Made by a program: the position numbers and the translations under genes
Notes under the pieces: generated by a model
The model's database searches: none
What the model was told of the DNA's origin: nothing
Seen by the model: the letters and a program-made list of their open reading frames with translations, nothing else
Assembly: GCA_903861145.1 (NCBI GenBank)
Contig: CAIOTH010000038.1
Location: forward strand, 1 to 33,878
Length of the DNA stretch: 33,878 bases
Direction of reading: 5' to 3'
DNA from: an uncultured Bacteroidota bacterium
GTDB taxonomy: Bacteria > Bacteroidota > Bacteroidia > Chitinophagales > LD1
Shown: positions 3,427 through 33,878 of the stretch, in pieces
How positions within the stretch are numbered: the first letter of the stretch is position 1
Layout: each line of letters starts with the position of its first letter

Positions 3427-4282
3427 TAGAAAATTAAATATCGTAATCTGGGCTTTTCCAAGCTGGCATGGCAACTACATGAAGAGCACCGTTGAGTTGG
3501 CTAAAGAATTAGCGTTGCGCCACAGGGTGTTGTATATTGATTACGCCTATACCATTAAAGATGTAATTTCAGCAAAGCCGGATTCAGCCGTACCGGTTGA
3601 CCGTATCTTAAAGAGCGAACAAAGTCTTAAAACAATTGCGCTTGATAATGGCGGAAAAATTTCTATTCTCTCCCTTCCTCCAATCATCCCATTTAACTGG
3701 ACCAACTCACGCGCCATTTACCGGGCGATAGAAGAAATAAACTACCACATCGTTTCCGAAAGAATTAAAAGCACTTTGAAAGAGCTTGATTTTAAAGCTG
3801 ATATTGTTATAAATGCCTTCAACCCGTTTTTCGGTAATGCCATACCTAAATTATTTCCCAATAGCCCGGTAATTTATTACTGCTACGATAATATTGAAGC
3901 CAGTGACTGGGCAGCAAAACACGGCGGCCGTTTGGAGCGCGAATTTGTTGCAAATACCAAAGCCGCAATCTTCTCGTCAGATGCACTAATGGAAAATAAA
4001 GCCTGGAATGTGCCCGGCTACGTTGTAAAAAACGGGGTTGATCTGCGCATTTTCAACTGCATAGAGAACGAATTGAAACTAAGGAACGAGAAAAAAATTA
4101 TCGGCTATGTTGGCACTAACAGCGCTTGGGTCGGCGCTCTTTTCATCGTTATTCTCATTTATCAATCCATCGCGACAACTGCTTGTACCGCAATTGGGCC
4201 TGCCATCTTCATTACAACCACCCTGGCCGGTGCCATGTGTGCAATGAACCACTACAACCTTAATTCCTTTGGCCGCCGATGA
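3416..4282 (+). pseudogene. Glycosyltransferase (GT-B fold), truncated after the N-terminal domain
   Basis: The ATG overlaps the end of the Wzz-like gene by 11 bases. Residues 1 to about 232 look like the N-terminal half of a GT-B glycosyltransferase: the start IVIWAFPSWHGNYMKST, HRVLYIDYAYT, ADIVINAFNPFFGN, VIYYCYDNIEASDWA, AIFSSDALME, VKNGVDLRIF, and finally KKIIGYVGT. In relatives the last motif opens the second Rossmann domain, which carries the nucleotide-sugar site. Here the remaining 55 residues are the antisense of a convergent PKD-protein gene and resemble no glycosyltransferase. The enzyme therefore lacks its donor-binding half and should be inactive. The break lies near 4115 and may be a deletion, an inversion or an assembly join. 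Confidence 0.75.
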
Positions 4283-13506: not shown

Positions 13507-14256
13507 CTACGTTGTTATTAATTCAGAGCTGTTGCTGGATTTTTTTCTGAGCGACTCTCCTTTTAAGTCCAGCCGGTGTGCTTCATGGATGATCCTGTCG
13601 AGTATGGCGTCAGCCACGGTTTTTTCTCCTATTATATCATGCCATTTGTTGACCGGTACCTGTGAGGTGATGATAGTAGAACTCTTACCGTGCCGGTCTT
13701 CAATAATCTCCATCAGTATCGCGCGGCTTGGTCCGTCTAAGGGTTGTATACCAAAGTCATCGAGGATCAGGAGGTGCTGCCGTTCTATTCGAGCCACTTC
13801 CTTTATGTAAGAGCCATCGGCTTTAGCCATTTTTAGTTTGCCAAAAAGTTTTGCGGTATTGTGGTAGGCCACCTTGTATCCTAAACTGCAAGCCTGGTGG
13901 CCCAAAGCAGAGGCGATGTAGCTCTTGCCGATTCCGGTACTGCCGGTTATTAGTACGTTCTCGTTCTTGTCAATAAACTTGCACTCTGCGAAGCGCATGA
14001 TGAGGTTCTTATCGATGTTACGGCCAGTATGGTAGTGCAGTTCTTCCAGCGCAGCCTTGTAGCGGAAGCGGGCGTTTTTAAGATGCCTTTCTATGTTCCT
14101 GTTTTGCCGGTCGTCCCATTCAGCTTCAATAAGGTTAGCGATCATCTCATCAACTGTGTAGTCTTCCAGTTTGCCTGATTCCAAGCTTGTTTTAAAAGTC
14201 CTGAACATGCCGAAGAACTTCATCTTCCGCATTTTTTCTAAAGTTGTTGCATTCAT
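13507..14256 (-). CDS. istB: IstB-like ATP-binding protein of IS21
   Basis: This 249-residue protein is the AAA+ helper ATPase of IS21 elements, which binds DNA and directs the IstA transposase to targets. Walker A is GSTGIGKS in VLITGSTGIGKSYIASALGH, Walker B is LLILDDFG, and the C-terminal part has the usual TIITSQVPVNKW and DAILDRIIHEAHRL. The start MNATTLEKM at 14256 is chosen over an upstream start at 14361 because an AAAGGAATT ribosome-binding-like stretch precedes it and the length is normal for the family. It has no intact IstA partner here, so it is an orphan unless a related IS elsewhere supplies the transposase. Confidence 0.93.
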   Translation of the reverse strand: MNATTLEKMRKMKFFGMFRTFKTSLESGKLEDYTVDEMIANLIEAEWDDRQNRNIERHLKNARFRYKAALEELHYHTGRNIDKNLIMRFAECKFIDKNENVLITGSTGIGKSYIASALGHQACSLGYKVAYHNTAKLFGKLKMAKADGSYIKEVARIERQHLLILDDFGIQPLDGPSRAILMEIIEDRHGKSSTIITSQVPVNKWHDIIGEKTVADAILDRIIHEAHRLDLKGESLRKKSSNSSELITT

Positions 14257-14287
14257 AATTCCTTTTGTTTTTGGTGATTTATTTGGT

Positions 14288-14374
14288 TTACTGATAGTAT
14301 TCTTCCCCGCGTATATTCTCGTGCAGCGGCATTTCCATTTGTTTGTTTTCCTCTGTTTCATCTAACTTATCCAT
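14288..14374 (-). pseudogene. 3' remnant of istA (transposase C-terminus)
   Basis: In the frame upstream of istB the sequence encodes a 28-residue tail ending PLHENIRGEEYYQ and a stop. HENIRG-x-x-YY is a C-terminal signature I associate with Bacteroidota IstA proteins. The rest of istA, about 480 codons with the DDE catalytic core, is missing. No reading frame continues upstream, so the deletion endpoint lies near 14375-14420. Confidence 0.65.
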
Positions 14375-14533
14375 TCCTTTTTCCAGGTGTAAGCGCCTGT
14401 TCTGCACTTATACTTGGATTGTTGGTTATGGGGTTCATGATAATTTTTTGTAAAATTCGATTTTATGTTGGGGCTGGTAAAACTGAATTCCACTTAAGTC
14501 ATGTTTGCGACCGTAAACGCCCAATAAGTCCCC

Positions 14534-14725
14534 TTAATTCCCTTTTTGGAAATCGGGAGGAGGACCTAAGCAGTCATAAATTAGACCTACCTCTTTCGGA
14601 GTCAACATATGTCTACGGGTATTTAATCGGATTTGAGGAAATTCTTTTAGCAGCTTTTTTAAGGTCTTCCGATGCATGCCATACTGCCGGGCGATATTTG
14701 TAAGGGTGGATGCGTACGTTTTCAT
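14534..14725 (-). CDS. Small helix-turn-helix protein of the element
   Basis: This 63-residue protein has a probable HTH in residues 8-27 (LTNIARQYGMHRKTLKKLLK), then a conserved-looking helix LTPKEVGLIYDCLGPP. Small proteins of this shape are common beside primase genes in Bacteroidota integrative elements and could act as regulators, replication factors or excision factors. It lies between the IS remnant and the primase-like gene, on the same strand as the replication genes. No ribosome-binding site decides the start. The specific role is unknown. Confidence 0.6.
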   Translation of the reverse strand: MKTYASTLTNIARQYGMHRKTLKKLLKEFPQIRLNTRRHMLTPKEVGLIYDCLGPPPDFQKGN

Positions 14726-14789
14726 TCGTTTACAATTTGAAGTCTATTAAAAATTAGTTCACGGTGTCGAAGGAATTGCTTTGCCTGCC

Positions 14790-15668
14790 TTAATGACCTA
14801 TTATTTCTCCATTGCGTGTTAGAAATGGCCGTAAACCATGGCTTGCGCGTTGCTCACGGTAGATATAATCAACTATATCTCTTATTTCTCTCTCTTCGAA
14901 ATCATCTTCGGCGAAGCCAATGCAATTTGTCATTGTAAGTTCGATTGCTAATCCTTTTAGGTTACAGTATCTGGCAAGGGAAACAAGGTAGTGATGCCTG
15001 TTTCCTTTAGTAAACGAGTGGGTTTTATTTATTTGAGTTACACACCAGGAGAAGCCAGTAAAGCTGTTGTTAAGACTAAGATGCTTCGCGTTATTTTCGG
15101 GAATATTGTTTGTAATGGAAGCTGATAGTAGTTTGTAAGGTTGAGCCGAATGATTAAACCAGTGGGTGGTTGCGTCGTTGTAGCTTACATACCTGGGCTG
15201 TGAAATAACTCGATGACAATTATCTCCCATTGGCAACCCCATGTCGTCAAATGATTGGATTAATCTCTCATAATGCCTTCCATAGTTTTCGGTCGCAAAC
15301 GGGACTATACAAAACAATCTTCTCCCTCTACAGGACAAACCACAATAAGCAATGTAGGGTATCCTTTTAAGTTCACCGGTAAGGTCGTACAAATCATAAT
15401 CTTCAGCACAGTCCAGATCCACGCAGGCAAGCTTTGATGGCAGAATTAAGCCATTTTTATTCCTTGAACTAAAAACACCAGCTACAGTGTAACATGGAAG
15501 AGTATCCTTAATTCTCTTTTGTTCCTTTTCATCATTTACGTTGCGCAAACGCTCGATTACTATCCTGTGTTTACCACTTGTAAGTAACTGCAATAGGTTT
15601 ACATTAACGGGAGTCTCTACTGAGGAGTGGTTTTGGAAGTAACTCACTTTTTTGTCTAATAAACTCAT
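14790..15668 (-). CDS. Primase-like protein with VirE-N/BT4734-type domain
   Basis: The 292-residue protein matches the Bacteroidota BT4734/BF3469 N-terminal domain found before VirE or helicase domains in mobile elements and related to archaeo-eukaryotic primases. Motifs seen are VAGVFSSRNKNGLI, the acidic LACVDLDCAED (probable metal site), the basic SCRGRRLFCIVPF and VISQPRYVSYN. The C-terminal part (KGNRHHYLVSLARYCNLKGL) resembles the helical region that follows the primase domain. It probably makes primers for replication of the element with the helicase encoded next to it; the two are separated by a 73-bp gap containing a long hairpin. Catalysis is inferred from the family, not shown. 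Confidence 0.8.
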   Translation of the reverse strand: MSLLDKKVSYFQNHSSVETPVNVNLLQLLTSGKHRIVIERLRNVNDEKEQKRIKDTLPCYTVAGVFSSRNKNGLILPSKLACVDLDCAEDYDLYDLTGELKRIPYIAYCGLSCRGRRLFCIVPFATENYGRHYERLIQSFDDMGLPMGDNCHRVISQPRYVSYNDATTHWFNHSAQPYKLLSASITNNIPENNAKHLSLNNSFTGFSWCVTQINKTHSFTKGNRHHYLVSLARYCNLKGLAIELTMTNCIGFAEDDFEEREIRDIVDYIYREQRASHGLRPFLTRNGEIIGH

Positions 15669-15695
15669 AAAAAAGTAATTGCTTTTAGGTTCAGA

Positions 15696-15735
15696 TATTC
15701 AGTTCTTCGGATTTCGATGGCTGAAGAACTGAATA
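15696..15735. other. Perfect 13-bp inverted repeat between the helicase and primase genes
   Basis: TATTCAGTTCTTC (15696-15708) pairs exactly with GAAGAACTGAATA (15723-15735) around a 14-base loop. There is no long U-run on either strand, so it is not a simple terminator. Its place between the primase and helicase genes makes it a candidate replication origin or primase recognition site, or an RNA element controlling the downstream primase. Confidence 0.65.
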
Positions 15736-15741
15736 GCTGAA

Positions 15742-17013
15742 TTAGTTTTGGTCATCATTTTTTGCCAGATTTTCTTCGGCGAAGAATGCTGCGCTACCAT
15801 TATTTAATCTTGCCCGGGTAAACCCCTTTTTCTCGAAACGAGCCGCAAATTTCTTTTTCCCTACGGGCCTAACCAATTCATCTTGGCAGAAGTGCTTGTA
15901 TTTCAGATAGAGTTCGGCCAAGCTAATTTTCCCATTCTCAGATGGACAATACTTAAATTCCTTTAAAAACTGCTCGACACTATCGGATTCTTCACGAAAT
16001 GTATTGAGTGCACATTTAGCTTTGGGGCTTTCGGTGAATTTTTCTTGCTTTAATAACCGGTTTAATCCCTCTAGAATCCAGTTAAATACACCTGGCAACT
16101 CGCTGGCTACAATTTTTTCCGCAAGATGAATATCCTTTTCTTTGTCAGTAATCTTTTGTTCAAAGGGTATTATCAGGTATCGTCTAAAGTAAGCGTCCGT
16201 TTGCTCGGTTTCACTGGGCATTTCATTAGCGTTAATCATGAATTTCACTTTATTTCTTATTGTAAAGCTCTTTCCATACGGTTCCCGCGCTTGGACCGGC
16301 TCTCCACTTACAAGAGCTTTGAAAGTATCAGGGTGCAGGTCAATATTTTTTTCGGATGAATAGTTTAGCAACACATTTGTTAAGCGTGCACGATTGTATT
16401 CCGTTTTGAATTGACCTAAGGAATAAGTCAATACGTTTTCAAAACTCAACAATCCAACGATGATGTCAAAAAACACAGATTTGCCATTATGGCCTGGACC
16501 CAATAAAACCAAGCATTTTTCAAGCTTAAGTTCGGTAAATATGAATCCTGAAAATTCTTGTAACGCCATTCTGCTTTCCTGTTCCGGCAAAACACGTTTT
16601 AGATAGGTATTAAAAAGTGAGCAGGCCGCCCCTTTATCATAAGAAAATGGTAACTGATAAGTCAGGAAATCATGAGAATCGAACTCCCTTAGTTTACATC
16701 CGGAAGAAGAGAATTCCATTGTTCCATTTTGAAGGTTAATAAGAATCTTCTTCTCTGCCAAGGGTGGTGACGGCAAGTACCCCGCACATAAAAATTGTTT
16801 AAGCAATTTTTCTCTAAATTCGAAATGCACGGCCTCATACTCCGGATAGCCCATGTTCATAGCTACTTGCCCTAAAAAATATTTTATAGTGTCTCGGTCG
16901 AATTGTTGCCAGTATTGACCGTTGAAAACGTAAGCGTAGTCATAGCGTTTGCACAAATTCCAGCCGAGTGAGCTGGAGAGCAGTTCGAAGCTCCGCCTTT
17001 TCAATTTCGACAC
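15742..17013 (-). CDS. Superfamily 3 (D5/P4-type) replicative helicase
   Basis: This 423-residue protein is a phage/plasmid-type SF3 helicase that unwinds the origin DNA of the element. Walker A is GPGHNGKS in CLVLLGPGHNGKSVFFDII, and the later KVKFMINANEMPSETEQTDA and AYFRRYLIIPFEQKI are the Walker B-to-sensor region and the Arg-rich end of the core. A D5-N-like domain precedes it (YDYAYVFNGQYWQQFDRDTI). A C-terminal winged-helix-like region (ISLAELYLKYKHFCQDELV) follows. The start is GTG at 17013, directly after an in-frame TGA, and the gene overlaps the excisionase-like ORF by 74 bases. The N-terminus is short, so its start may have been reshaped by a deletion. Confidence 0.9.
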   Translation of the reverse strand: MSKLKRRSFELLSSSLGWNLCKRYDYAYVFNGQYWQQFDRDTIKYFLGQVAMNMGYPEYEAVHFEFREKLLKQFLCAGYLPSPPLAEKKILINLQNGTMEFSSSGCKLREFDSHDFLTYQLPFSYDKGAACSLFNTYLKRVLPEQESRMALQEFSGFIFTELKLEKCLVLLGPGHNGKSVFFDIIVGLLSFENVLTYSLGQFKTEYNRARLTNVLLNYSSEKNIDLHPDTFKALVSGEPVQAREPYGKSFTIRNKVKFMINANEMPSETEQTDAYFRRYLIIPFEQKITDKEKDIHLAEKIVASELPGVFNWILEGLNRLLKQEKFTESPKAKCALNTFREESDSVEQFLKEFKYCPSENGKISLAELYLKYKHFCQDELVRPVGKKKFAARFEKKGFTRARLNNGSAAFFAEENLAKNDDQN

Positions 17014-17128
17014 TACGCATCAGTTTTACTTGGTGCGTTTCTTGAAGTGCTTCCCTGACTTTGTCCTTTATTAAGGCGCCAAGTTGGGATTCCGAAAGAT
17101 GATACACTTGAAAATAAGGTATATCCAT
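16940..17128 (-). pseudogene. Truncated excisionase-like ORF, HTH part missing
   Basis: The 62-residue ORF, if started at MDIPYFQVYHLSESQLGALI, carries the N-terminal helix pattern (LSESQLGALIKDKVREALQE) that precedes the MerR/excisionase-type HTH in many Bacteroidota element proteins. That HTH is absent: the frame runs 74 bases into the helicase gene and stops. A deletion fusing the end of a regulator gene to the start of the helicase gene would explain both the missing HTH and the odd overlap. A longer start at 17230 is possible but adds no recognisable sequence. Confidence 0.4.
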
Positions 17129-17267
17129 TAGAGTTGGTGTAGCTATGATTTGCTGAATAACTACTTCGCAAAGGGAAAAAAGCTTTCCCGAAGACCCAAA
17201 CCTTAAACGGTATATATAAGTGGAACCCAAATAGGTGGGGTGCTAAAATCTTTCCGGAAATTATTTT

Positions 17268-17831
17268 CTAAGAAATATTGCCGTTTATAAAATTTTTCAT
17301 GCGTTCAACCATTATTTTATAATAATCAGCTGAGTCCACGTCCTTATCCAGGTAATTTGGGAAATTCTCCGGGGATAACCACTCAAAAAAAGGTAATAGT
17401 AAACGATAATTATGGGATACCGAAAAGCTATCCCTATAGGGTTTTTTCACAGCAACGTCGTTGAGTATATCATGTAAAATCAAGCGTTGCCAAAAACTCA
17501 TATCAAACTCTAAAAATTTCATAAGTATCCCTTTTCCTTCTTCCTTTTCGGGGATTTTGATACCGGACGAAGCCGATTGAGCTCGAAATTTTTCCTCCTC
17601 GGCATCTATCATTTCATACCATGCAATTTGGTTTTCTAATATAGTAATTAATGAAGTGAATTGCTTTAAAACTTTATGCTCCCCTGGGAATTTATCCGAA
17701 AAGTTTATTGTCGCACTTTTGATTTTGTCTTTAAAAGTCTTATAATAAGAAAAGTCGAGGCCCAGACACAATTGCTCAATTAAAGAATTCGAATAAGAGG
17801 CACCTTCCGGGGGAAAGTTGGTAGCGGTTAT
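17268..17831 (-). CDS. Element protein of unknown function, start codon unclear (possible ATA)
   Basis: I do not recognise the family. The protein is helical and soluble, with acidic and aromatic runs (SFWQRLILHDILND, LLLPFFEWLSPENFPNYLDK). The frame is open up to an ATA at 17831, preceded by AAAAGGAG, and the extra N-terminal residues (TATNFPPEGASYSNSLIEQL) read like real protein. The first standard start is a TTG at 17771, giving 167 residues. Either ATA is used, translation is coupled to the gene ending 7 bases upstream, an ATG was mutated to ATA, or the TTG is used. It is the second of two unknown genes between the integrase and the helicase. Confidence 0.6.
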   Translation of the reverse strand: MTATNFPPEGASYSNSLIEQLCLGLDFSYYKTFKDKIKSATINFSDKFPGEHKVLKQFTSLITILENQIAWYEMIDAEEEKFRAQSASSGIKIPEKEEGKGILMKFLEFDMSFWQRLILHDILNDVAVKKPYRDSFSVSHNYRLLLPFFEWLSPENFPNYLDKDVDSADYYKIMVERMKNFINGNIS

Positions 17832-17837
17832 CTCCTT

Positions 17838-18350
17838 TTAATTTTTTATAAAATTCAGAAAGGCAAATTTATTTGGAATAAAATACAATCTTACTAAAGT
17901 GCCCGCCTGTCGGGTAAAGTATTTATCATTCTCTATATTATCAATAACTGAAAAAGCAAATTCTGAATTTATGAACTTTATATTTTGGATAAGATGCATC
18001 ATTACATAAGCAAACTCTATGAAGAATTGTGGGTCAGTGTTTTCTGCACTATTAGCACCTTTTATGCATTCAGATACTTTTTCATAACCGTCATTCCCTG
18101 TTATAAATAGCTCATCAACTTTGTCCTCGCTTAACAAGGCAAACCTGGCATGCTTTGGCAGAGTTAATTTACTTAAGGATTGAATGGACATGATTTCAGT
18201 GTAGGATTGTCCCTCCTTAACATTGATTATATACTTTAAATCCGTTGACAAAGCATCGTCCTGCTTCTCGGCAACTAGACCCCAAATAAAACTGGGTAAA
18301 GCAATGATTTCAGTTCTGCTTTTCTCAAAGAGCACATCGCCAAGATCCAT
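17838..18350 (-). CDS. Element protein of unknown function
   Basis: The 170-residue protein starts MDLGDVLFEKSRTEI and has no motif I can name. It is mixed alpha/beta, soluble and without a signal peptide; the second half is helical and hydrophobic (QFFIEFAYVMMHLIQNIKFI). It sits 73 bases downstream of the integrase and 7 bases before the next gene on the same strand, so the two unknown genes are probably one operon. By position they may be regulators, replication accessories or defence/interference cargo; none of these is supported by motif. Confidence 0.65.
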   Translation of the reverse strand: MDLGDVLFEKSRTEIIALPSFIWGLVAEKQDDALSTDLKYIINVKEGQSYTEIMSIQSLSKLTLPKHARFALLSEDKVDELFITGNDGYEKVSECIKGANSAENTDPQFFIEFAYVMMHLIQNIKFINSEFAFSVIDNIENDKYFTRQAGTLVRLYFIPNKFAFLNFIKN

Positions 18351-18423
18351 ATTTAATTGAGTTATTGCATTATTAAGAAATCAGTAGCCCTGGCTTTCTA
18401 ATTACTAAGAATTATATTTTCAA

Positions 18424-19725
18424 CTATTTCTTTTTGTTCCAGGCCTTGATCATTGCGTTTTTCTTGAATTCATCAGTAATTTCCAGGTACCGCATCGTGT
18501 CTTCTATATCAGTATGTTGTAAAAGTTCTTGCAGTGTTGTAATGTCCATCCCATTAATTAAAGAAATACAGGCAAACGAATGGCGAGAAGAGTGCATGGT
18601 TAATACCTCATGCTTGAGTACGATGTCGGCTATTCTATTCACGCCTTGAAATCTCACCACCTCAATCTTAGAATTCAGTTCCCCCTCTTTAGCCATTTCT
18701 TTCAATATTGAGTTCGATTCCTGGTTCGTCAGAACTGGCAAACACTTGCTACCAGGAAGTTTGCCGTGATATTTTTTTAGAATATTGAGGGCAGTGGGGT
18801 GCACAATAGGAATCACTGCTTTATTTGAACCCTTATGTGTAGTCAAATTAATTGCTGTCACAATTTTACCTTTCCTTACTAAGTGCTGCTCTGATAACTG
18901 GGCCAGGTCAGAATATCTAAGTCCTGTATAACAACCGAAGCAAAACACATCTCTTATGTGGTCGTATCTTGGATTTTTCGAGAAGTCAAATGCATTCAAA
19001 TGGAGTAGTTCATCTTCGTTGATCCAAATGATTGTCTTCTTTACCAGAGTTAATAGATCATTAATTTTCACTTTTTCTATTTCACGGTTATCAGTATCCT
19101 TTTGTTCGATGGCATAGTGTATAAACGCCTTGAGTTTGGAAAATTTCCCTTCGATTGTTTTGTTGGAGTTATCATATTCTTCAATCAGGAAGCTAAAATA
19201 TTTCACCACCCAGTTGTGATCAATTTCATGATATACCAAACTTGCCTTTGTCTTTTCCGCAAAATCAAGTAGCTCATCTTTCAGTTGCTTATTTTTCGTA
19301 ACAGTACGAGGGTTTCGTAATTTTGCACTATAATTAATATAATCATCAAGTCTTTCAATGAGACTGATCTGTTTTTTCTTTTCTTCAGAGTGAAAAAGTG
19401 ACTTGAAATAATCTTTTGACAATTTGATGTTTTTCCGCCTTGCATCTTTTTTAATGCCTTCAACCTTTTTGGCAAGTGTATCTAAGCTTTTCTGAAGTTC
19501 TTCGTCAGTTTCATCATCCCGAAGATTCCTGGGTTGGCCTTTTTTTTCATCCCAATATCTTTTTTTGATTTTCTCGCCGGTTGAATAGCGAAGACGGTTA
19601 TTCTTGTATATTGCACCTTCAGCGGATTCAACCTTGTCATAGCCAAGGCCGATGTACATCATGATAGTATAGAACCCGTTCTTATCCTTTTTATCCAAGT
19701 AAAACTTTGAACCATAGTATTCCAT
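18424..19725 (-). CDS. Tyrosine integrase of the element
   Basis: The 433-residue protein is a phage-type tyrosine recombinase of the Bacteroidota kind. An N-terminal arm-binding region is followed by a SAM-like core-binding domain (KYFSFLIEEYDNSNKTIEGK) and the catalytic domain. Catalytic residues are visible: Arg in CYTGLRYSDLA, the Lys region THKGSNKAVIPI, HxxR in HSSRHSFACISL, His in LQHTDIEDTM and the nucleophile Tyr in MRYLEI. It starts 160 bases inside attR and reads inward, the usual arrangement. The candidate arm repeats lie just before its start, so its binding could also control its own promoter. It should catalyse integration into and excision from the tRNA 3' end. Confidence 0.95.
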   Translation of the reverse strand: MEYYGSKFYLDKKDKNGFYTIMMYIGLGYDKVESAEGAIYKNNRLRYSTGEKIKKRYWDEKKGQPRNLRDDETDEELQKSLDTLAKKVEGIKKDARRKNIKLSKDYFKSLFHSEEKKKQISLIERLDDYINYSAKLRNPRTVTKNKQLKDELLDFAEKTKASLVYHEIDHNWVVKYFSFLIEEYDNSNKTIEGKFSKLKAFIHYAIEQKDTDNREIEKVKINDLLTLVKKTIIWINEDELLHLNAFDFSKNPRYDHIRDVFCFGCYTGLRYSDLAQLSEQHLVRKGKIVTAINLTTHKGSNKAVIPIVHPTALNILKKYHGKLPGSKCLPVLTNQESNSILKEMAKEGELNSKIEVVRFQGVNRIADIVLKHEVLTMHSSRHSFACISLINGMDITTLQELLQHTDIEDTMRYLEITDEFKKNAMIKAWNKKK

Positions 19726-19941: not shown

Positions 19942-20544
19942 ATGCAACATCTGCGTTTTTACATGATAACCGCGCTAATATTTGGCGTTTCCCTTCCGGC
20001 ATTTTCAGCAACCGAGGTGTTGCGCTTTAAAGTTTTACTTTTTGGCGATAGTGTGGGCCGGCTTACCATTTCGAAAGAAACCAGGGCAGATGGCAGCGAG
20101 TTATACATGCTCGATAGCTATTCAAAAGCCAGAATATTGTGGATTGTTCATGAAAATACCACCCATTATGAGGTGGTTTATAAGGATGGAAAGCTATTTT
20201 CTTCCAGGTTTAAGGAAATTGAAAAAGGCGAGTTAAAGCGGTGGAACAACGTTAGCTGGGATGGCAAACAGTATAATGTGGATGGTTATAAAGGAAAGCG
20301 CATCCTTAACGAAACGCCTGTTTTTTCGATTGTAAGCCTCTTTTTTAGCAATACTCAAAATGTAAAGAAGCTTTTTTACGAAGCCGAAGCCGATTTTAGC
20401 GATGTAGAGCACCTTGAAAATAATACCCTCGAGTTTAAGAGCAGCGACGGCAACCGCAACGTTTACCACTACGTAAATGGCAGGGCAAATAGCATGGAGT
20501 TTCACGTATCCATAGCCTCGGTTAAAATGGTGAAGATTAATTGA
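19942..20544 (+). CDS. DUF6134-like secreted protein, first of a tandem pair
   Basis: The 200-residue product has a signal peptide ending near VSLPAFSA, then a beta-rich domain with LRFKVLLFGDSVGRL, ADGSELYMLDSYSKARI, RWNNVSWDGKQYNVDGYKGK and a closing SSDGNRNVYHYVNGRANSME. These match, as I recall, the Bacteroidota family DUF6134 of periplasmic proteins of unknown function. It shares this whole pattern with the next gene, 10 bases downstream, so they are a tandem duplication. It starts 14 bases after the displaced tRNA terminator, so its promoter, if not read through, must lie very close. Confidence 0.8.
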   Translation: MQHLRFYMITALIFGVSLPAFSATEVLRFKVLLFGDSVGRLTISKETRADGSELYMLDSYSKARILWIVHENTTHYEVVYKDGKLFSSRFKEIEKGELKRWNNVSWDGKQYNVDGYKGKRILNETPVFSIVSLFFSNTQNVKKLFYEAEADFSDVEHLENNTLEFKSSDGNRNVYHYVNGRANSMEFHVSIASVKMVKIN

Positions 20545-20554
20545 AAAGCGAAGT

Positions 20555-21154
20555 ATGGTTTATATAATGAGGTTGCTTTTGAGCATTGGGTTTTGTTTGG
20601 CAGTTTGGACACAGGCCTATGCCGAAAGTATTAGCTACGATATTTTGTTGTTCGGCAACAAAATAGGCAGCATGGTTGTAACCCACCAGGCGCAGGCCGA
20701 TGGTACCGATTTATATACCCTGGTAACCACCTCGAAGGCAAAAATTTTATGGATAGACAAGAGCAACGATAGCCGGTATCAATTGATATTTAACGGCGGT
20801 AAACTGCAATCCTCAGTTTTTAAAGAAGTTGAGAATGGCGCGGTTAAGCGCTGGTGCAATATTACATGGGATGGTGCCAAATACCAGGTTGATAGCCACC
20901 GCGGTAAGTACTCGTTTACCGATGTGCCAACTTACTCATCTATAACAGCGTATTTTGAGGGGTTTAAAAAATCCAACCGCATTTTTTACGAATCGGAAGG
21001 TGACTTTACCAGCGTTGAGTATCCTGAACCTAATACCATGCAATTTAAAACCAGCGATGGGCATAAAAGTATTTACCACTATGTAAATGGTAAGGTAAAC
21101 AACATGGAGTTCAAGATTTCGATTGCCACTATTTATATGGTGTTGAGTAAGTAG
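20555..21154 (+). CDS. DUF6134-like secreted protein, second of a tandem pair
   Basis: The 199-residue product is a diverged copy of the preceding protein: signal peptide ending AYA, then ISYDILLFGNKIGSM, ADGTDLYTLVTTSKAKILWI, RWCNITWDGAKYQVDSHRGK and SDGHKSIYHYVNGKVNNMEF. The spacing of conserved blocks is the same, but many residues differ, so the duplication is old and both copies appear maintained. The function is unknown. The gene follows the first copy by 10 bases and is probably co-transcribed. The ATG at 20555 could be replaced by the Met at 20567, which would also keep a complete signal peptide. Confidence 0.8.
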   Translation: MVYIMRLLLSIGFCLAVWTQAYAESISYDILLFGNKIGSMVVTHQAQADGTDLYTLVTTSKAKILWIDKSNDSRYQLIFNGGKLQSSVFKEVENGAVKRWCNITWDGAKYQVDSHRGKYSFTDVPTYSSITAYFEGFKKSNRIFYESEGDFTSVEYPEPNTMQFKTSDGHKSIYHYVNGKVNNMEFKISIATIYMVLSK

Positions 21155-24996: not shown

Positions 24997-27900
24997 TTAT
25001 TTGGCGTTTACCTTTACAAAACGCGTATGGTAATGCTGGTTATTGGCCTTAATGTTTATGGTGTAAACCCCGGCGCTCAAATCAGCAATGTTTAGGCTAA
25101 TGCTAGTACCTGTTTCGGGGCATAAAGCTAAAACCTGTTGTCCGGTTAAATCAACAATACTAATATCCTGTATTTGGGTAAGCGTTGATTTAATATTTAA
25201 AACATCGTTAGCCGGGTTAGGGAAAATCTGAATGTGCAAATCCTTTATAATTGGTTTTACATCAGTAGGACTAAAAGCAACCACCGCGCTATCGCTGCCT
25301 TCATTAATTGATAGCACGTGGCCTGTGTCGTTAATTACGGTAAGCCTTGTAATAAAGTTATTCATAATGTAGTACGAAAGGTCTTTACCATTAATGTTAC
25401 CGGTGGTAATTTTCATGCTAACGGTAGCAATTGGGCCCTGGCCCGAGCGGTTACCGTGGTCAATACGTGTAAGCGCAGCCTGCACTTGCCCTGCATCATA
25501 AAATGTTTTGCTGATGCTAATATGGTCACCAGTGCCGGCCAGCCACGAGTTACCGAAGGAAATGTTTACGCTATTGCTATCAACCACCAGTGGGTCGAAA
25601 TTGTAGGTAAATGCAAGGGCATATACGTTGGTGCAAGGCATGGCCGAATCGCCAAGCGAGAGTGTGGCCACTGCAGTTTGCCCATCAACCAATGTATCGG
25701 GGCTAACGGTTACGTGCAATACCGGCGAGTTTATTTTCCATGGCTGGTCTGTTCCGTTACGTGGGTGGGTGCGGTCGTAATTCAATACAATGGCATTCGT
25801 ATCGGTGGCGTTAATTACTCCATCGCCGTTACAATCAACATGCTTGTAATTAATGCCGGCTAAAAGTGTATCGTACCAGTTGGTGCAGAATTGTGGTATA
25901 AAATTAATAGTGGCGTTTAAACGGGCATAGCCGATATCATCGTATCCCAATCCAATAGCAAGTAAATCGTTGTTATCAACCACTCCGTCATAGTTGGCAT
26001 CTCCCGGCCAAACGCATTGGTCGGTGCAGCCTAAATCTACCTGGAAGTAGGTGGCGCAACCTTCTGAATCTACCACCACTATATTCGAATTACTGCTCAG
26101 GTTATAAATATGGGTGCCAGTGCTATCGGGTAGGCTGTCAAAGGTGGTATTGTTCCAATTAACATAATACGGCAGTATACCGCCATGAATGATGATAGAA
26201 ACTGTATCGGGTACTGAGTTAGAATCGGGCTCTAGTACCTGCAGGTGTAAAGGATTGTTTTGACCCATTTGGATCGTATCGAACGCCCAGCAATTATTAG
26301 CATCGGTAACGGTTTCTATATAAACAGCAGGATAACTTAGTAAAACTATGCTTCCGGTTTGGCCACTACTCCAAAGATAATTATACGGTGGGGTTCCGCC
26401 CATGGCATAACTGGCCACAGTACAGCCGGTAAGGTATTGAACAACAGAATCTACAAGTTGCGTGGGTTGGGTAATAACTGCCGAAGCGCTTATTGAGCAG
26501 CCGGAACTATTAGTTGCAATCACCTGATATGCGCCCGAACTAAGACTTGTAACGCATGGGGTTGTGGCAGCCATAGGACTCCACATATAAGTAATACCGG
26601 GACCGCCCGATGCATAAACGCAAGCTGAACCACTATTCGTGGCGTAGCAGGCTACATTGGTTGTAACCATGGAATCGATAGTTATACCACCGGTTGCCGC
26701 AACCTGTCCGCAGCCACCAGCCGTGCAACCATTTACGTCTACCACGGTAAGGCAATAAGTATTTGCGGTAAGCCCGGTAATGGTTTGGGTTGTTCCCGTT
26801 TGGCTCCATGCATATACGTAAGTAGGAGTACCACCTGATGGGTGAACAGTCAACGTTCCGTTATTGACCCCGCAAGCAGTACTGGAGGAAAAAGAATCTA
26901 TTACAAGCGGCGCTGGCTGTGCAACAATTGCCGAGTCAACGATGCCGCAACCTAAAGCATCGGTAATAATAACATAGAATGACCCTGCACTAAGGCCGTT
27001 TATACATTGTGTAGTAGTAAAATTACTCCACTGAAAAGTGAATGGTATGGTGCCCCCGCTTACGGTAAGGCATGACGAGCCATTATTTGCGCCATTGCAA
27101 GTTACGTTCGTGGTACCAATCTGGTCATTAATTTGCGGTGACCGGGGCCTTATAGTATCTGGCACGAAAACCGTGCAGCCGTGCTGATCTTTTATGGTTA
27201 CAACATAAATGTTTGGAGTATTGACCGAAAAAACACCTGAGGATTGGAAAGTAATCCCGTTTAGAGAATAAGTGAAAGGGGACGTGCCCCCGAATATGGA
27301 AGCGGTTATAGTATCGCCGGGCGTATTGTAACACCAGGTGTCGCTTTTGTTAGAAACAGACCCTGTTACGCTGTAGTTGGCTTGAATGGTAGCATGTATG
27401 GTATCGCTGCAACCCAGTGAATCTGCAGCTGTAACAACATAAGCACCCGGCATTACTAAGGCAAAGGTGTTTGACTGTTGAAATGGCCCGCCGTTTATGG
27501 AGTAATTAAATGGGGGCGTGCCACCGGTGGCGGTAACAATAATGCTGCCATCTTGAACACCAAGGCAAGTACCATTTGTTGTTGTTTGGCTTAGCGAAAT
27601 TGCAGGTGGTTGCGTGATTGTTGCTGACGTGCTTACGGAACAACCAGTGGCGTTGGTAACCGTTAAAACATACGTGCCTGCAACAAGTTGAGGTATACAG
27701 GGATTCAGCGTTGCACCGTTGCTCCAACTATAAACAAAAGGCCCACCACCTGATGCAAATACACATATCGATCCATTGCTGCCACCAAAACAGCTAACGT
27801 TGGTTGTAACTATCGAGTCAATATTTACCGCTAAAGGGTCGGTTACAACTACACTGGCGGAAGCGCTACAACTGCGTGTATCGCTAACCGTAAGTACATA

Positions 27901-29358
27901 GGTGCCCGGCGATAAACCGTTGATAAATGAATTACCCAAAGCGTTATTACTCCAGCTATACAAATAACCCGGTGTGCCGCCCGATACATATGAGGTAACA
28001 ATTCCGTTATTGTCCTGGCAGGTTTGACTATTGGCAACTAACGAATCAATACGCGGTGAGGGATTTACCGTTATTACTACACTGCTGGTAGCTGAGTTAC
28101 TGTTGTTATCGGTTACGGTAATAGTATATGTTGTTGTAGTGATGGGAATGGCAAATGCTGCCTGCGAAGTTGGATTCACAAGGCCTCCGCCCGGAGACCA
28201 TGCATAAGCGTAAGGCGGAGAGCCACCATCAACGGTTGCTTCCAGGGGTATAGTATTTCCCCGGCATACGGTTGTATTAATGCCGGCACTAACTGTTAAG
28301 GTGCCTAAACAGCTACTTACATTTACTAATATACTTGCGGTGGCTGTTACGCCATTAGCATCGGTAACAGTAAGGGTGTACCGCGTGTTGGCCGCCGGGC
28401 TAAGCGCCGGGTTTGAAATAGGAGCTGCACCGCTATTCCAGGCATAAGTATATGGTTGGGTCCCCCCTTGTGCCGTTGGGTGGCCGCCTAATAGTGCCGC
28501 GCTGCCCTGGCAAACGGTGGTATCATTACCGGCGTTTGCAATTAATGTGCCGCAGTTAGTTAGGGTTATTGCTAAGCTATTGGTACCGGTACAGTTATGG
28601 CTATCGGTAACTGTAACAACGTAAGTATATGTACCTGCAAGGTTAGGATTAACCTGTACTGTTTGGGTATGCGGCGTATTTAAATATGAGCCACTCCAGC
28701 TAAAAGTATATCCCGGCACCCCGTTAACAGGGAGTGCTGTTAAAGTATCAACTGCTCCTGTATTTGCGCACCCATTTATCGGGCCGGTAATTGTGATGGA
28801 AACGGAAGGTATCGTTGCGTCGGAAGTTACCGTGTCCTCGGCAACCACGCTACAACCGCTTGAAGGGTCAGTAACGGTAACGTCATATATTCCGGGTTCA
28901 GAAACTGATTTGGATGCGCCGGTTATGCCCGCGCCCCAATTAAAAGTAGCCCCGGTTGTTGTTGACGAGGCCGTAAGCACTTCGCTATGTGCCGTGCATG
29001 TTAAAACCGCAGGAATGTTAAAACTTACATTAGGTGTTGGCGCAAGGCTTATTGTAACACTGGCTGTGGCCGTTGCGCTGTTAGCATCGGTAACAGTAAC
29101 GGTATACGTTACTAGCCCAAAAGCTGTAATTACCGGGTTTGGTACTGAAACCGAGGAAATGCCCACCGCAGGAGACCACTGGTAAGTATAAGATCCCACG
29201 CCACCACTGGCGGTGGGCGTGCCTCCTATAATGGCCGTGGCACCAGGGCATAGCGTTAAGTTAACCCCTGCGGAGGCAATTGGCTGGGCAAAAGTTTTAC
29301 CAATACCAAATAGGAACAACAAGCAAACCAGGGTTGCGGAGTTTAATTTTGAGCGCAT
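24997..29358 (-). CDS. Giant T9SS-secreted adhesin with PKD-like and SprB repeats and a dockerin-like pair
   Basis: The 1,453-residue protein has a signal peptide (ending KTFAQ), about four PKD/Ig-like repeats (each with ANAGNDTTVCQGSAALLGG-like starts and TYTVTVTDANSATA ends), about eight SprB-type repeats (for example VTCNGANNGSSCLTVSGGT, then WSN, then INGLSAGSFYVIITDALGC), a Ca-binding dockerin-like segment (GDANYDGVVDNNDLLAIGLG and DCNGDGVINATDTNAIVLNY), a cohesin-like beta domain with DPLVVDSNSVNISFGNSW, and a type A T9SS sorting domain (IFPNPANDVLNIKS, LSAGVYTINIKANN). It is exported through the T9SS and should be attached to the cell surface or released, probably as an adhesin for surfaces or polysaccharides. 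SprB of Flavobacterium is a gliding adhesin with related repeats, but no gliding genes are in this window. Confidence 0.92.
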   Translation of the reverse strand: MRSKLNSATLVCLLFLFGIGKTFAQPIASAGVNLTLCPGATAIIGGTPTASGGVGSYTYQWSPAVGISSVSVPNPVITAFGLVTYTVTVTDANSATATASVTISLAPTPNVSFNIPAVLTCTAHSEVLTASSTTTGATFNWGAGITGASKSVSEPGIYDVTVTDPSSGCSVVAEDTVTSDATIPSVSITITGPINGCANTGAVDTLTALPVNGVPGYTFSWSGSYLNTPHTQTVQVNPNLAGTYTYVVTVTDSHNCTGTNSLAITLTNCGTLIANAGNDTTVCQGSAALLGGHPTAQGGTQPYTYAWNSGAAPISNPALSPAANTRYTLTVTDANGVTATASILVNVSSCLGTLTVSAGINTTVCRGNTIPLEATVDGGSPPYAYAWSPGGGLVNPTSQAAFAIPITTTTYTITVTDNNSNSATSSVVITVNPSPRIDSLVANSQTCQDNNGIVTSYVSGGTPGYLYSWSNNALGNSFINGLSPGTYVLTVSDTRSCSASASVVVTDPLAVNIDSIVTTNVSCFGGSNGSICVFASGGGPFVYSWSNGATLNPCIPQLVAGTYVLTVTNATGCSVSTSATITQPPAISLSQTTTNGTCLGVQDGSIIVTATGGTPPFNYSINGGPFQQSNTFALVMPGAYVVTAADSLGCSDTIHATIQANYSVTGSVSNKSDTWCYNTPGDTITASIFGGTSPFTYSLNGITFQSSGVFSVNTPNIYVVTIKDQHGCTVFVPDTIRPRSPQINDQIGTTNVTCNGANNGSSCLTVSGGTIPFTFQWSNFTTTQCINGLSAGSFYVIITDALGCGIVDSAIVAQPAPLVIDSFSSSTACGVNNGTLTVHPSGGTPTYVYAWSQTGTTQTITGLTANTYCLTVVDVNGCTAGGCGQVAATGGITIDSMVTTNVACYATNSGSACVYASGGPGITYMWSPMAATTPCVTSLSSGAYQVIATNSSGCSISASAVITQPTQLVDSVVQYLTGCTVASYAMGGTPPYNYLWSSGQTGSIVLLSYPAVYIETVTDANNCWAFDTIQMGQNNPLHLQVLEPDSNSVPDTVSIIIHGGILPYYVNWNNTTFDSLPDSTGTHIYNLSSNSNIVVVDSEGCATYFQVDLGCTDQCVWPGDANYDGVVDNNDLLAIGLGYDDIGYARLNATINFIPQFCTNWYDTLLAGINYKHVDCNGDGVINATDTNAIVLNYDRTHPRNGTDQPWKINSPVLHVTVSPDTLVDGQTAVATLSLGDSAMPCTNVYALAFTYNFDPLVVDSNSVNISFGNSWLAGTGDHISISKTFYDAGQVQAALTRIDHGNRSGQGPIATVSMKITTGNINGKDLSYYIMNNFITRLTVINDTGHVLSINEGSDSAVVAFSPTDVKPIIKDLHIQIFPNPANDVLNIKSTLTQIQDISIVDLTGQQVLALCPETGTSISLNIADLSAGVYTINIKANNQHYHTRFVKVNAK

Positions 29359-31208: not shown

Positions 31209-32591
31209 TTAAAAAATAGCCGCTGCTACTTTGAAAGCAGAACGCGTTAGCACATTTGGTTTTTCGTTCATTACTAATGGCTCGACAATGTGCACAGCGC
31301 TTTTAAGCATTTTGTACGAGCGGGTAAAGCCGGTTTTTGAGGGAGATGTTTTTAGCATGCCACCAACGCCGTAAAGTGCTACAGCAAAAAAGTGCCGTAG
31401 CAATAATTGCTCATCGCGCGAAATTGCCGAGAGAATGGCAATAGGCTCAAGCGCGTGTTTGCCACCGCTTTTTAAATAATCGTAACAGGCGGTTTTTAAA
31501 TCTTCGTTTTGCATAACGCCATACAGTGCATCGGCCAATATGTTGATGGTGGCGTTTTGCTTGTGGCGCGTTGCGTAGAATGATGCTACAGCCGCATCAA
31601 CCGGTTTAATGCTTTCTGATTGTTCAAGCGCAATTAGTCGCGAGCCAAGATTAAGGATATCTGAAAAAGCGGCCGTCATTCCCCCACCGGTTAATGGGTG
31701 GCGCATGTTTAAGGAGTCGCCAATCATGGCAACGCCGGGTTTTGTAAATGGCTTGGCCGGTATTAAGTGGTTGGGCATGGATTTAAACTTGCCTTCGGCT
31801 ACTGCAGCCATAAACGAGGGCACAATCTGTGATGGTAATTGCGGTGCAATTGTTTCTGCCAAATAATTTGAAAGCTCAGCTGATTTTCGGGGTGCTTCAT
31901 TACCCGGAAAGTCAATAAGGATGCGGGTTTCGGTGCTTGATATTGGATATACAAGGCATGGTGAGGGTTTGGCAACTATAACGTGCCCGTGATTTTTGAA
32001 AGGCAGGTTGCAATCTTTTAAAATCATGCCCAGGAAGAAACTGCTCACCTTTTTTTCATTGCTTGATAACTGTCCGCGGAAAGCAGAGAACATACCATCG
32101 CAAACCACGGTGAGTTTTGCAGTGATGTCTTTGCTTTCATCACTATTCTTTTCGGTATATTTTAATCCGGTTATTCGCCCCTCTACTTCATTTAGTTGTT
32201 GAACGGTGCCTTCAATAACAGTTACGTTGGGCAACGACAGAATATGCTGCCTGATGCGTTGTACAAACTTACCGTTCCGCAAACCGCGACCGGTTAAAGT
32301 TTTCCCATTTTGGGTGGGGTACGAAATTTTGAAGTTATCGCCATTCATAAAAAGCCCATAGCCTTCTATTTCCTGTGCGTCAAGTTCATTCAGTAAATGT
32401 GCGAGGCCTAGTTCCTGTAGTTTTATTACACCCCCGGGTTGCAGCAATTCACCTATCATGCGTTCCTGCTCGGCCATGTTTTTTTCAACTACGGCAACGC
32501 GTAAGCCATTGCCACCGAGATAAGCAGCCAGCACACCGCCGGCTACACCTGCACCTATTATGCAAACATCAAATTGAGGGGTAGGCTTCAT
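31209..32591 (-). CDS. Squalene monooxygenase (squalene epoxidase)
   Basis: The 460-residue FAD enzyme inserts oxygen at the 2,3 bond of squalene, giving 2,3-oxidosqualene, the first oxygenation step of sterol synthesis. It carries the flavin motif CIIGAGVAGGVLAAYLGG, the family-specific IGELLQPGG, the FAD-binding VVCDGMFSAFRG and the most diagnostic IGDSLNMRHPLTGGGMTAAF, all in the order of the eukaryotic enzyme. ALYGVGGM and the C-terminal hydrophobic helices fit its membrane association; the N-terminal regulatory domain of the human enzyme is absent, as expected for a bacterium. The length is normal. The gene starts 3 bases after the squalene synthase stop, so the pair is one operon. Other FAD monooxygenases lack this motif set. 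Confidence 0.95.
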   Translation of the reverse strand: MKPTPQFDVCIIGAGVAGGVLAAYLGGNGLRVAVVEKNMAEQERMIGELLQPGGVIKLQELGLAHLLNELDAQEIEGYGLFMNGDNFKISYPTQNGKTLTGRGLRNGKFVQRIRQHILSLPNVTVIEGTVQQLNEVEGRITGLKYTEKNSDESKDITAKLTVVCDGMFSAFRGQLSSNEKKVSSFFLGMILKDCNLPFKNHGHVIVAKPSPCLVYPISSTETRILIDFPGNEAPRKSAELSNYLAETIAPQLPSQIVPSFMAAVAEGKFKSMPNHLIPAKPFTKPGVAMIGDSLNMRHPLTGGGMTAAFSDILNLGSRLIALEQSESIKPVDAAVASFYATRHKQNATINILADALYGVMQNEDLKTACYDYLKSGGKHALEPIAILSAISRDEQLLLRHFFAVALYGVGGMLKTSPSKTGFTRSYKMLKSAVHIVEPLVMNEKPNVLTRSAFKVAAAIF

Positions 32592-32594
32592 GGC

Positions 32595-33791
32595 TTAAAA
32601 AAGAACGGTTTGCTCAAGCGTTCCTTCAGTTATAATGTTGGGGTTATACTTTACATCATCCAGTGCCTCAATAATTCTATTCAGGTTCTTTTTGGTTTGG
32701 GTATAGTTGGGGTCTTCGGTATTTAGCTTTCTTCTTATTTCGGCCACAAATTTTTCCATGTATTTGCGCACGCTTTCCATGTCGTTGGTCTCGAGCATCA
32801 ATTTGGCGGCAATTCCTTTGCGTATTTTAACCACCTCGGTAAACACGTTATGGTTGTTGTAAATTTTTGCCAGTGTAGCCATAGCCATTACCTGCGGTAT
32901 AGCACAAAACCTGAAAACCTTCGGGTCGCTAATCATGTTTAAATACAAAATGCAATTCTCCACGTGAGTAAGTGCATCGGTAACCAACTCGTTAATGCAG
33001 GCTAACGATTCGGGTGATGAAGGATGTTTTTGCAGTTCATCTAACCGGTCGGTGTATTTGCCCCAAATTTGTTTTGGCCAAAAGGTGCGGCCCAGGTTAA
33101 GGTCTTCATAATAATCGCGCGAGATATTGGTTTTTTGTAGCAATAGGCCCATGCTATTAGCCAACTCGTACTTATCTTTTAACCTCGGTGACTCTAAACC
33201 CGAAGCAGAGAAAAGCGAGGAAAGCCCAATCCCCACTAATCCCGCTACGTAATAACAATAGTCGTTGTAATCATGCAGGGTAACTACTTTGCGCTCGGCA
33301 TAATCGGCCATGCCATTGCCCATTTTTTGGCAGATATCGGCAATAGCTAAGCGGTAGTCTTCATCCAGTGCCTGGAAAGCCCTGATTACTTTATCGAAGT
33401 TGGCCAGCAGCACGCGGTAATCGTGGCTATCGCCTACGTTTTGAATGTTCCAGTTTTTATCAAACAGTTTTTGATGAAAGTTGCGGAGCAACGGCAGGCG
33501 TTTATCAACCGGGTAGCTCATATCATCTTCAACCGAATCGAGGCCGCGCAGAACAAGGTAAAAAACACAAACAGGGTCTTTTAACTGCTCGGGCAGTTGC
33601 TGAATAACTATGGCAAAAGAGCGCGATACTTTGTTGAGGGAGGCATAGCAAAAATCGCGGTCGTTGCTATAACTCGCTATTTTTTCGAGGGACTCTTTAT
33701 TATCACTTATTGATATGTTACTAAACTTAATTCGTACCATTGCGAGAACCTCGGAAGGGCGGTGAACTGACTTTAGAAGATCCGTAATCAT
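32595..33791 (-). CDS. Squalene synthase (farnesyl-diphosphate farnesyltransferase), eukaryote-like
   Basis: The 398-residue enzyme couples two farnesyl diphosphates through presqualene diphosphate to squalene. It resembles the eukaryotic type along its whole length: ASLNKVSRSFAIVIQQLP, the first Asp-rich motif FYLVLRGLDSVEDDMSYP, ADICQKMGNGMADYA, YYVAGLVGIGLSSLFSASGL, SMGLLLQKTNISRDYYED with the second Asp motif, GRTFWPKQIW and FCAIPQVMAMATLAKIYNN. The C-terminal membrane anchor of eukaryotic enzymes is missing, so it is probably soluble or peripheral. Start MITDLLKSVHRPSEVLAMVR at 33791 is chosen because it aligns with the eukaryotic N-terminus; a start at 33833 is also open. Most bacteria instead use HpnCDE or CrtM-like enzymes, so this type is noteworthy. 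Confidence 0.95.
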   Translation of the reverse strand: MITDLLKSVHRPSEVLAMVRIKFSNISISDNKESLEKIASYSNDRDFCYASLNKVSRSFAIVIQQLPEQLKDPVCVFYLVLRGLDSVEDDMSYPVDKRLPLLRNFHQKLFDKNWNIQNVGDSHDYRVLLANFDKVIRAFQALDEDYRLAIADICQKMGNGMADYAERKVVTLHDYNDYCYYVAGLVGIGLSSLFSASGLESPRLKDKYELANSMGLLLQKTNISRDYYEDLNLGRTFWPKQIWGKYTDRLDELQKHPSSPESLACINELVTDALTHVENCILYLNMISDPKVFRFCAIPQVMAMATLAKIYNNHNVFTEVVKIRKGIAAKLMLETNDMESVRKYMEKFVAEIRRKLNTEDPNYTQTKKNLNRIIEALDDVKYNPNIITEGTLEQTVLF

Positions 33792-33811
33792 TAGGAGGGG
33801 TTTTAATATTT

Positions 33812-33870
33812 TGCGAATATTTCGCAGGGTCAAAAGAAGAACGAAAATTTCGCAAATGCAATAGCGAATT
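33812..33870. promoter_or_regulatory. Cluster of TTCGCA palindromes upstream of squalene synthase
   Basis: A perfect 15-bp palindrome TGCGAA-TAT-TTCGCA (33812-33826) lies 20 bases before the start codon, followed upstream by the palindrome CGAAAATTTCG (33842-33852) and a further GCGAATT (33864-33870). Repeated half-sites of this kind suggest a repressor or activator operator for the squalene operon. The regulator is unknown. Confidence 0.45.
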
Positions 33871-33878
33871 TTTCACAA

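Follow-up and report, generated by a model that had tools for sequence, protein, structure and literature searches.

The synthase and epoxidase genes at the contig end

The window, that is the whole stretch of DNA analysed here (33,878 nucleotides, corresponding to the entire contig C38), ends with two genes on the minus strand, coding for a squalene epoxidase and a squalene synthase. The epoxidase (squalene monooxygenase, 460 aa) occupies positions 31209-32591 and gives 294.8 bits against PF08491 (gathering score 20.1) and 308.5 bits against human squalene monooxygenase (6c6n); FAD-binding motifs are present, and its translation contains the FAD GxGxxG motif, GELLQPGG, NMRHPLTGGGMT and MRHPLTGGGMT, in columns that are mostly invariant or nearly so when aligned with 16 relatives. 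The synthase, a single enzyme of the eukaryotic type, lies at 32595-33833 and is 412 aa long when read from the first TTG; an ATG at 33791, codon 15 of the TTG frame, is a plausible alternative start and gives 398 aa. It reaches 457.6 bits against TIGR01559 (curated cut-off 286.75) and 329.4 bits against human squalene synthase (1ezf), and both aspartate-rich motifs, DSVEDD and DYYED, are found in the translation. Exactly 3 bases (32592-32594) separate the two genes. A sequence-only reading of this DNA had described full-length relatives of eukaryotic sterol enzymes, 3 bases apart and carrying DSVEDD, DYYED, GELLQPGG and MRHPLTGGGMT; coordinates, translations and family and structure scores agree with that description. 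For both predicted enzyme identities, chance is excluded.

Other features of the region can be described from its sequence. The minus strand at 24997-29358 encodes a 1453-aa protein that has SprB repeats as well as a T9SS sorting tail, and on contig C123, discussed below, a protein of 2229 aa is found (L003:6896-13585, minus strand); thus, very large proteins flank the cluster on both sides. Positions 13507-19725 code for an IstB-like ATPase, a BT4734-like protein, a D5_N/DUF5906 primase and a tyrosine recombinase, and probably represent an integrated mobile element, about 1.5 kb from a tRNA-Met. At 19942-21154 on the plus strand, a tandem pair of DUF6134 proteins adjoins an FKBP-type isomerase.

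The cyclase beyond the contig end

No cyclase lies in the window, as the sequence-only reading had stated, and the contig ends at 33878. A predicted oxidosqualene cyclase was found at the sequence level on contig C123 of the same genome (4.7 Mb in 174 contigs, 98.65% complete and 1.83% contaminated), so that the cyclase which the sequence-only reading had expected elsewhere in the genome is indeed there, as far as sequence tells. The end of the window (33738-33878) is identical over 141 bases to the reverse complement of one end of C123, an exact overlap which we infer to be what the assembler leaves at a graph junction. In the joined sequence, where the four genes are connected via this assembly overlap rather than read on a single contig, the cyclase (753 aa, TIGR01787) runs on the plus strand from 34032 to 36293 (L001:1444-3705, minus strand), starting 198 bp from the synthase and divergent from it. 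It is followed, in the opposite direction, by a polyprenyl synthase of 364 aa (joined 36441-37535, minus strand; L001:202-1296, plus strand; PF00348, 250 bits). Thus, the cyclase is absent from the window because the contig break hid it. Only one match to the cyclase model was obtained in this genome at E 0.001, so that no separate hopene cyclase was seen.

The same four genes, in the same order, are present in a close relative, the metagenome-assembled genome Bacteroidetes bacterium bog_950 (L119, PMXD01000266.1), with identities of 79% for the epoxidase, 88% for the synthase, 74% for the cyclase and 84% for the polyprenyl synthase; in that case, unlike here, all four are on one contig.

The window includes the start of the 198-bp region between synthase and cyclase (33834-33878), with a TTCGC/GCGAA dyad at 33849-33868. 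Dyads of this type occur in and beside the intergenic region (joined 33813-34024, the window reaching to 33878), and a second one near the cyclase start is also found in L119 and is absent from L121; this element is possibly a shared operator.

Type of cyclase

The cyclase scores 710 bits against TIGR01787 (cut-off 322.7) and 707.7 bits against the narrower model TIGR03463, below the 851-bit cut-off of the latter; its closest solved structure is human lanosterol synthase, with 699.8 bits as compared with 171.4 for hopene cyclase. Oxidosqualene cyclases are distinguished from hopene cyclases by a DCTAE-type motif in place of DxDD, and the motif found here, DCTAD, is of the DCTAE type. D455 (human numbering), which we take to be the catalytic residue, is kept; the acidic residue four positions after it is D, as in 3 of the 83 rows of the cyclase alignment, most of which have E (the rows are not deduplicated, some genomes being entered twice, once by G handle and once by record name). 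Loss of key residues, which the sequence-only reading had considered, was not seen in the alignments, where the motif residues of both epoxidase and cyclase are kept.

The positions corresponding to human T381, C449 and V453 are occupied in the alignment by Y392, H458 and I462, that is, by the residue signature of cycloartenol synthases. Indeed, the cycloartenol set is given as Y381/H449/I453 in human numbering, and I453 correlates completely with cycloartenol among the bacteria tested, including Fluviicola taffensis (PMC4919349). The same Y/H/I combination is found in 21 of the 22 long cyclases of the order survey, the remaining one being Y/H/V; three genomes with cyclase fragments are omitted from this count. 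The cyclases of Methylococcales are mostly Y/N/V or Y/Q/V, with L137, L142 and L154 as Y/H/I exceptions, while the five Eudoraea-type rows have F/N/V together with Y at the H232 position, where the query, Y/H/I, has H.

Comparison with other bacterial loci

Methylococcales with cyclase-epoxidase loci make lanosterol. In these loci, for example that of Methylobacter marinus A45 (L196), the cyclase is 49-52% and the epoxidase 44-47% identical to the query in most rows; however, V is mostly found at position 453, the genes are co-directional, no synthase match adjoins them, and 27 of the 58 loci scanned (L141-L198) have a P450-ferredoxin protein in their flanks. The carriers of these loci are described as lanosterol producers also in the literature (PMC4919349). 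In Eudoraea adriatica (L161) the epoxidase likewise adjoins the cyclase and is 44% identical to the query, whereas the cyclase is only 34% identical and has other product residues; indeed, the query does not belong to the Eudoraea-type cyclases, from which it is separated by an identity of 33-35% and by a distinct branch. F. taffensis, with SE (Fluta_3221) and CAS (Fluta_3214), is a cycloartenol producer among Bacteroidota, and resembles the present genome in having an epoxidase and a cycloartenol-type cyclase, with no canonical downstream homologues reported (PMC4919349). To judge from its published gene tags, a few genes separate epoxidase and cyclase there, a comparison made by description (PMC4919349); in the present cluster, only 3 bases separate the synthase from the epoxidase, and both point away from a cyclase 198 bp distant.

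Phylogenetic analyses were quick searches with SH-aLRT support only. The cyclase tree contains 61 rows (58 of the 83 cyclase rows and three PDB rows; 22 methanotroph rows, L067, L155 and L157 make up the 25 left out), and the epoxidase tree is built on 58, of which 56 come from the 80 named epoxidase rows and two are the query and the human enzyme (22 methanotroph rows, L155 and L157 make up the 24 left out, and G-handle rows are not included). The query cyclase is found with G160/bog_950 (support 100), within a bacterial group (97) that excludes the human and plant rows; the Eudoraea type is placed outside this group, far apart and on long branches, and the meeting of long branches, Eudoraea type with the plant row, calls for caution with this tree. 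The query epoxidase is grouped with L119 and L120 (99). Because the hopene cyclases that root the tree form a very long branch, we make no claim as to which way the genes were transferred between bacteria and eukaryotes.

Both trees also join the sampled Methylococcales to one Bacteroidota lineage (L153, L073; loci L141-L198), with two Methylothermaceae rows as exceptions in both cases; the cyclase of this Bacteroidota lineage is Y/H/V, between the cycloartenol and lanosterol residue sets. The Eudoraea-type epoxidases (L151, L155, L157, L158, L161, L172) are placed beside those of Bacteroidota and Chlorobiota that have cycloartenol-type cyclases, and their own cyclases are of a different type, 33-35% identical to that of the query, suggesting that the cyclase of these lineages may have been exchanged.

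Distribution of the epoxidase and cyclase genes

A survey of 396 genomes of the order gave strong epoxidase matches (at least 226 bits) in 25 and cyclases over the cut-off in 25, and the two sets are identical; both genes are on a single contig in 15 of these genomes and on separate ones in 10, among which is G007, an assembly of about 10 contigs. Both genes are found in 10 of the 18 sampled genomes of the same genus, in 17 of 30 of the same family and in 8 genomes of other families. In one further genome, G153, an epoxidase fragment scoring 89.6 bits lies at the edge of a contig, and no cyclase was matched; all other epoxidase matches of the survey are at most 38.3 bits and are probably other FAD monooxygenases. 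In named genomes 121 epoxidase loci were obtained, and the 80 best were examined with flanks of up to 8 kb and often less: a cyclase is present in the flanks of 70 of these 80 loci, a synthase in 31, a polyprenyl synthase in 12 and all four genes in 10.

Thus, the epoxidase-cyclase trait is not very rare in the order, as judged from 25 of 396 sampled genomes. The sequence-only reading had known of this chemistry in Bacteroidota only from a few lineages such as Eudoraea; the precedent proved to be wider, cycloartenol production by F. taffensis having been demonstrated in 2016 (PMC4919349). The component families are known ones, the synthesis of cycloartenol in Bacteroidota has been published (PMC4919349), and the chemistry, known from few bacteria, is more widespread in the group than cultured examples suggest. 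In the open-licence literature, no published account was found of this gene arrangement in the lineage, nor of its spread in the order; the interest of the cluster lies in its distribution, in the gene arrangement and in a clear, testable product prediction, the chemistry itself being known. Sterols found in rocks are interpreted as evidence of eukaryotes, and a cycloartenol-type cluster whose epoxidase and cyclase occur together in 25 of 396 sampled genomes widens the range of possible bacterial sources; the relatives that carry it are useful for dating and testing the origin of the cycloartenol and lanosterol types.

Candidate genes for downstream steps

The genome encodes six P450s. Among themselves they share 34-52% identity, as compared with 23-30% to the P450-ferredoxin proteins found near methanotroph cyclases, which are presumably CYP51. 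By this identity comparison no CYP51-like P450 was found among the six, and CYP51 was rejected for them on that ground; the two best PDB matches of the P450 on contig C127 are plant carotenoid-pathway P450 sequences. Profile searches of the genome for Sterol_MT_C and EBP gave no match, both being weak negatives, since no control was matched by the first and one control, below cut-off, by the second. Markers of a demethylating bacterial sterol pathway (CYP51-like P450, EBP isomerase) were thus not detected by family model or identity, a negative that does not amount to proof. The failure to find CYP51-like P450, EBP or sterol methyltransferase points to cycloartenol as the likeliest product predicted for the cluster.

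Contig C127 encodes a 438-aa sterol-reductase-like protein of the PF01222 family (L013:16483-17799, minus strand; 229.6 bits), which we take to resemble plant sterol Delta7-reductase, and whose nearest solved structure is the bacterial Delta14-reductase 4quv (192.6 bits). Across the 396 genomes surveyed, the gene was found in 24 (loci L089-L112), as a full-length copy in 21 and as a partial one in 3. Of these 24 genomes, 12 belong to the 25 with a cyclase (11 full-length copies and 1 partial) and 12 have no cyclase (10 full-length copies, one of them in G153, and 2 partial); these counts omit a short broken piece in G172 and weaker matches of 28-34% identity, taken as another subfamily. Within about 1.5 kb of flank at the 24 loci, no neighbour matched epoxidase, synthase or cyclase; conserved clustering with sterol genes was thus not seen when these loci were compared with the reference set. 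A P450 lies beside the gene in 3 of the 24 loci; on C127 it is about 1.2 kb away, and this pair is shared with the relatives G160 and G115. In genomes without cyclase the reductase perhaps acts on sterols of other organisms; plant-origin Delta7-reductases are reported from amoeba-resistant bacteria (PMC2667531). The genome also contains 13 places of the fatty-acid-hydroxylase family (FA_hydroxylase) and a desaturase-like protein (L022) with no solved relative at E 0.001.

Proposed pathway and alternative explanations

The four enzymes could form a continuous route. The polyprenyl synthase would probably supply farnesyl diphosphate, two molecules of which are predicted to be converted to squalene by the synthase; the epoxidase, using FAD and O2, would then produce 2,3-oxidosqualene, and the divergent cyclase would transform this compound into a protosterol, most likely cycloartenol, that probably remains in the membrane as the end product or close to it. 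We therefore favour, with a probability of about 0.78, a compact sterol-precursor cluster in a Bacteroidota genome, with cycloartenol as the most likely product and probably as the end product or near to it. From sequence comparison we infer the enzyme activities, the cycloartenol product, the lack of further demethylation and the membrane role.

A pathway that continues along a non-canonical route to a sterol that is demethylated or reduced, through the reductase-like protein of C127, one or more P450s and desaturase-like proteins, would be compatible with the PF01222 score and the similarity to 4quv, with the neighbouring P450 shared by G160 and G115, and with the room for tailoring left by six P450s and 13 FA_hydroxylase places; however, the reductase is distributed independently of the cyclase, it has no epoxidase, synthase or cyclase neighbour in 24 loci and a P450 in only 3, and CYP51-like P450, EBP and sterol methyltransferase were not found (two of these family searches being weak negatives), and such a continuation appears unlikely. 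Somewhat less credible still is that the Delta7-reductase homologue, unusual P450s and desaturase-like proteins tailor cycloartenol without CYP51, leading to an undescribed bacterial lipid; if true, cycloartenol would be the starting point of a sterol proper to these Bacteroidota. Lanosterol or parkeol as the cyclase product might be considered, since the prediction of cycloartenol rests on three residues and the E-to-D change in DCTAE is unusual; but the cyclase has all three cycloartenol residues, all but one of the 22 long cyclases in the order survey share Y/H/I, and the match between residue and product is complete in the published bacterial set (PMC4919349), which leaves this outcome quite improbable.

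The sequence-only reading had anticipated a sterol- or arborinol-like product: the sterol-type part is supported, by sequence, by the Y/H/I cyclase, whereas the arborinol part does not hold, Eudoraea's cyclase being distant. Eudoraea makes an arborinol-type pentacyclic product, belongs to the same phylum and also pairs epoxidase and cyclase (L161), but with cyclases only 33-35% identical, F/N/V instead of Y/H/I and a position far apart in the tree, this product is rejected on identity, product residues and tree placement, and is given next to no weight. The enzymes are of eukaryotic type and the assembly has 174 contigs, which could raise the suspicion of eukaryotic contamination or of a dead remnant; conversely, the reading frames are continuous, synteny with relatives is conserved and a protein with SprB repeats and a T9SS tail is encoded on the same contig. 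The trees, which the sequence-only reading had indicated as a check for contamination, give bacterial partners for both cyclase and epoxidase, in agreement with the bacterial context of the contig; eukaryotic contamination is thus rejected, and a contaminant or remnant origin is extremely improbable.

A fusion of epoxidase-like and cyclase domains in distant genomes

Of 395 sampled genomes from the phylum, five contain a cyclase over the cut-off, namely the present one and four that are distant from it. Three of the distant genomes (G680, G769 and G651) have the cyclase as the C-terminal part of a single frame of 1139-1176 aa (L222:8674-12204, plus strand; L223:5149-8568, minus strand; L221:9468-12962, plus strand), with V at the 453 position, and the N-terminal part is an epoxidase-like FAD monooxygenase; in the fourth genome, G629, the frame starts at the edge of a contig. 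The N-terminal part gives 72-75 bits against PF08491 and a similar 69-71 bits against the general FAD_binding_3 model, and is 23-29% identical to classical epoxidases, so that any substrate assigned to it is guesswork based on context. Among the three fusions, identity is 61-67% along most of the sequence, which makes an assembly error unlikely. In the open-licence literature, searched through titles and the starts of abstracts, no published account of an epoxidase-cyclase fusion was found, and this protein is perhaps a more novel lead than the gene pair of the window.

In G651 and G769 the fusion is preceded by genes for an epimerase/3-beta-HSD-type protein, a Rieske oxygenase, an ERG24-type reductase and a CYP51-like P450, the latter 37-39% identical to the methanotroph P450s, and thus forms the end of a sterol-type operon; in G680 the upstream genes include one of epimerase type and a PF01222-like match. 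The fusion of G769 adjoins the gene of a methyltransferase whose Sterol_MT_C domain scores 82.1 bits (L223:4132-5145, plus strand), which hints at side-chain alkylated bacterial sterols. At a like place in G651 two short frames (L202:3782-4144 and 4223-4594, both minus strand), one of which weakly matches a methyltransferase, have the appearance of a disrupted copy of this gene.
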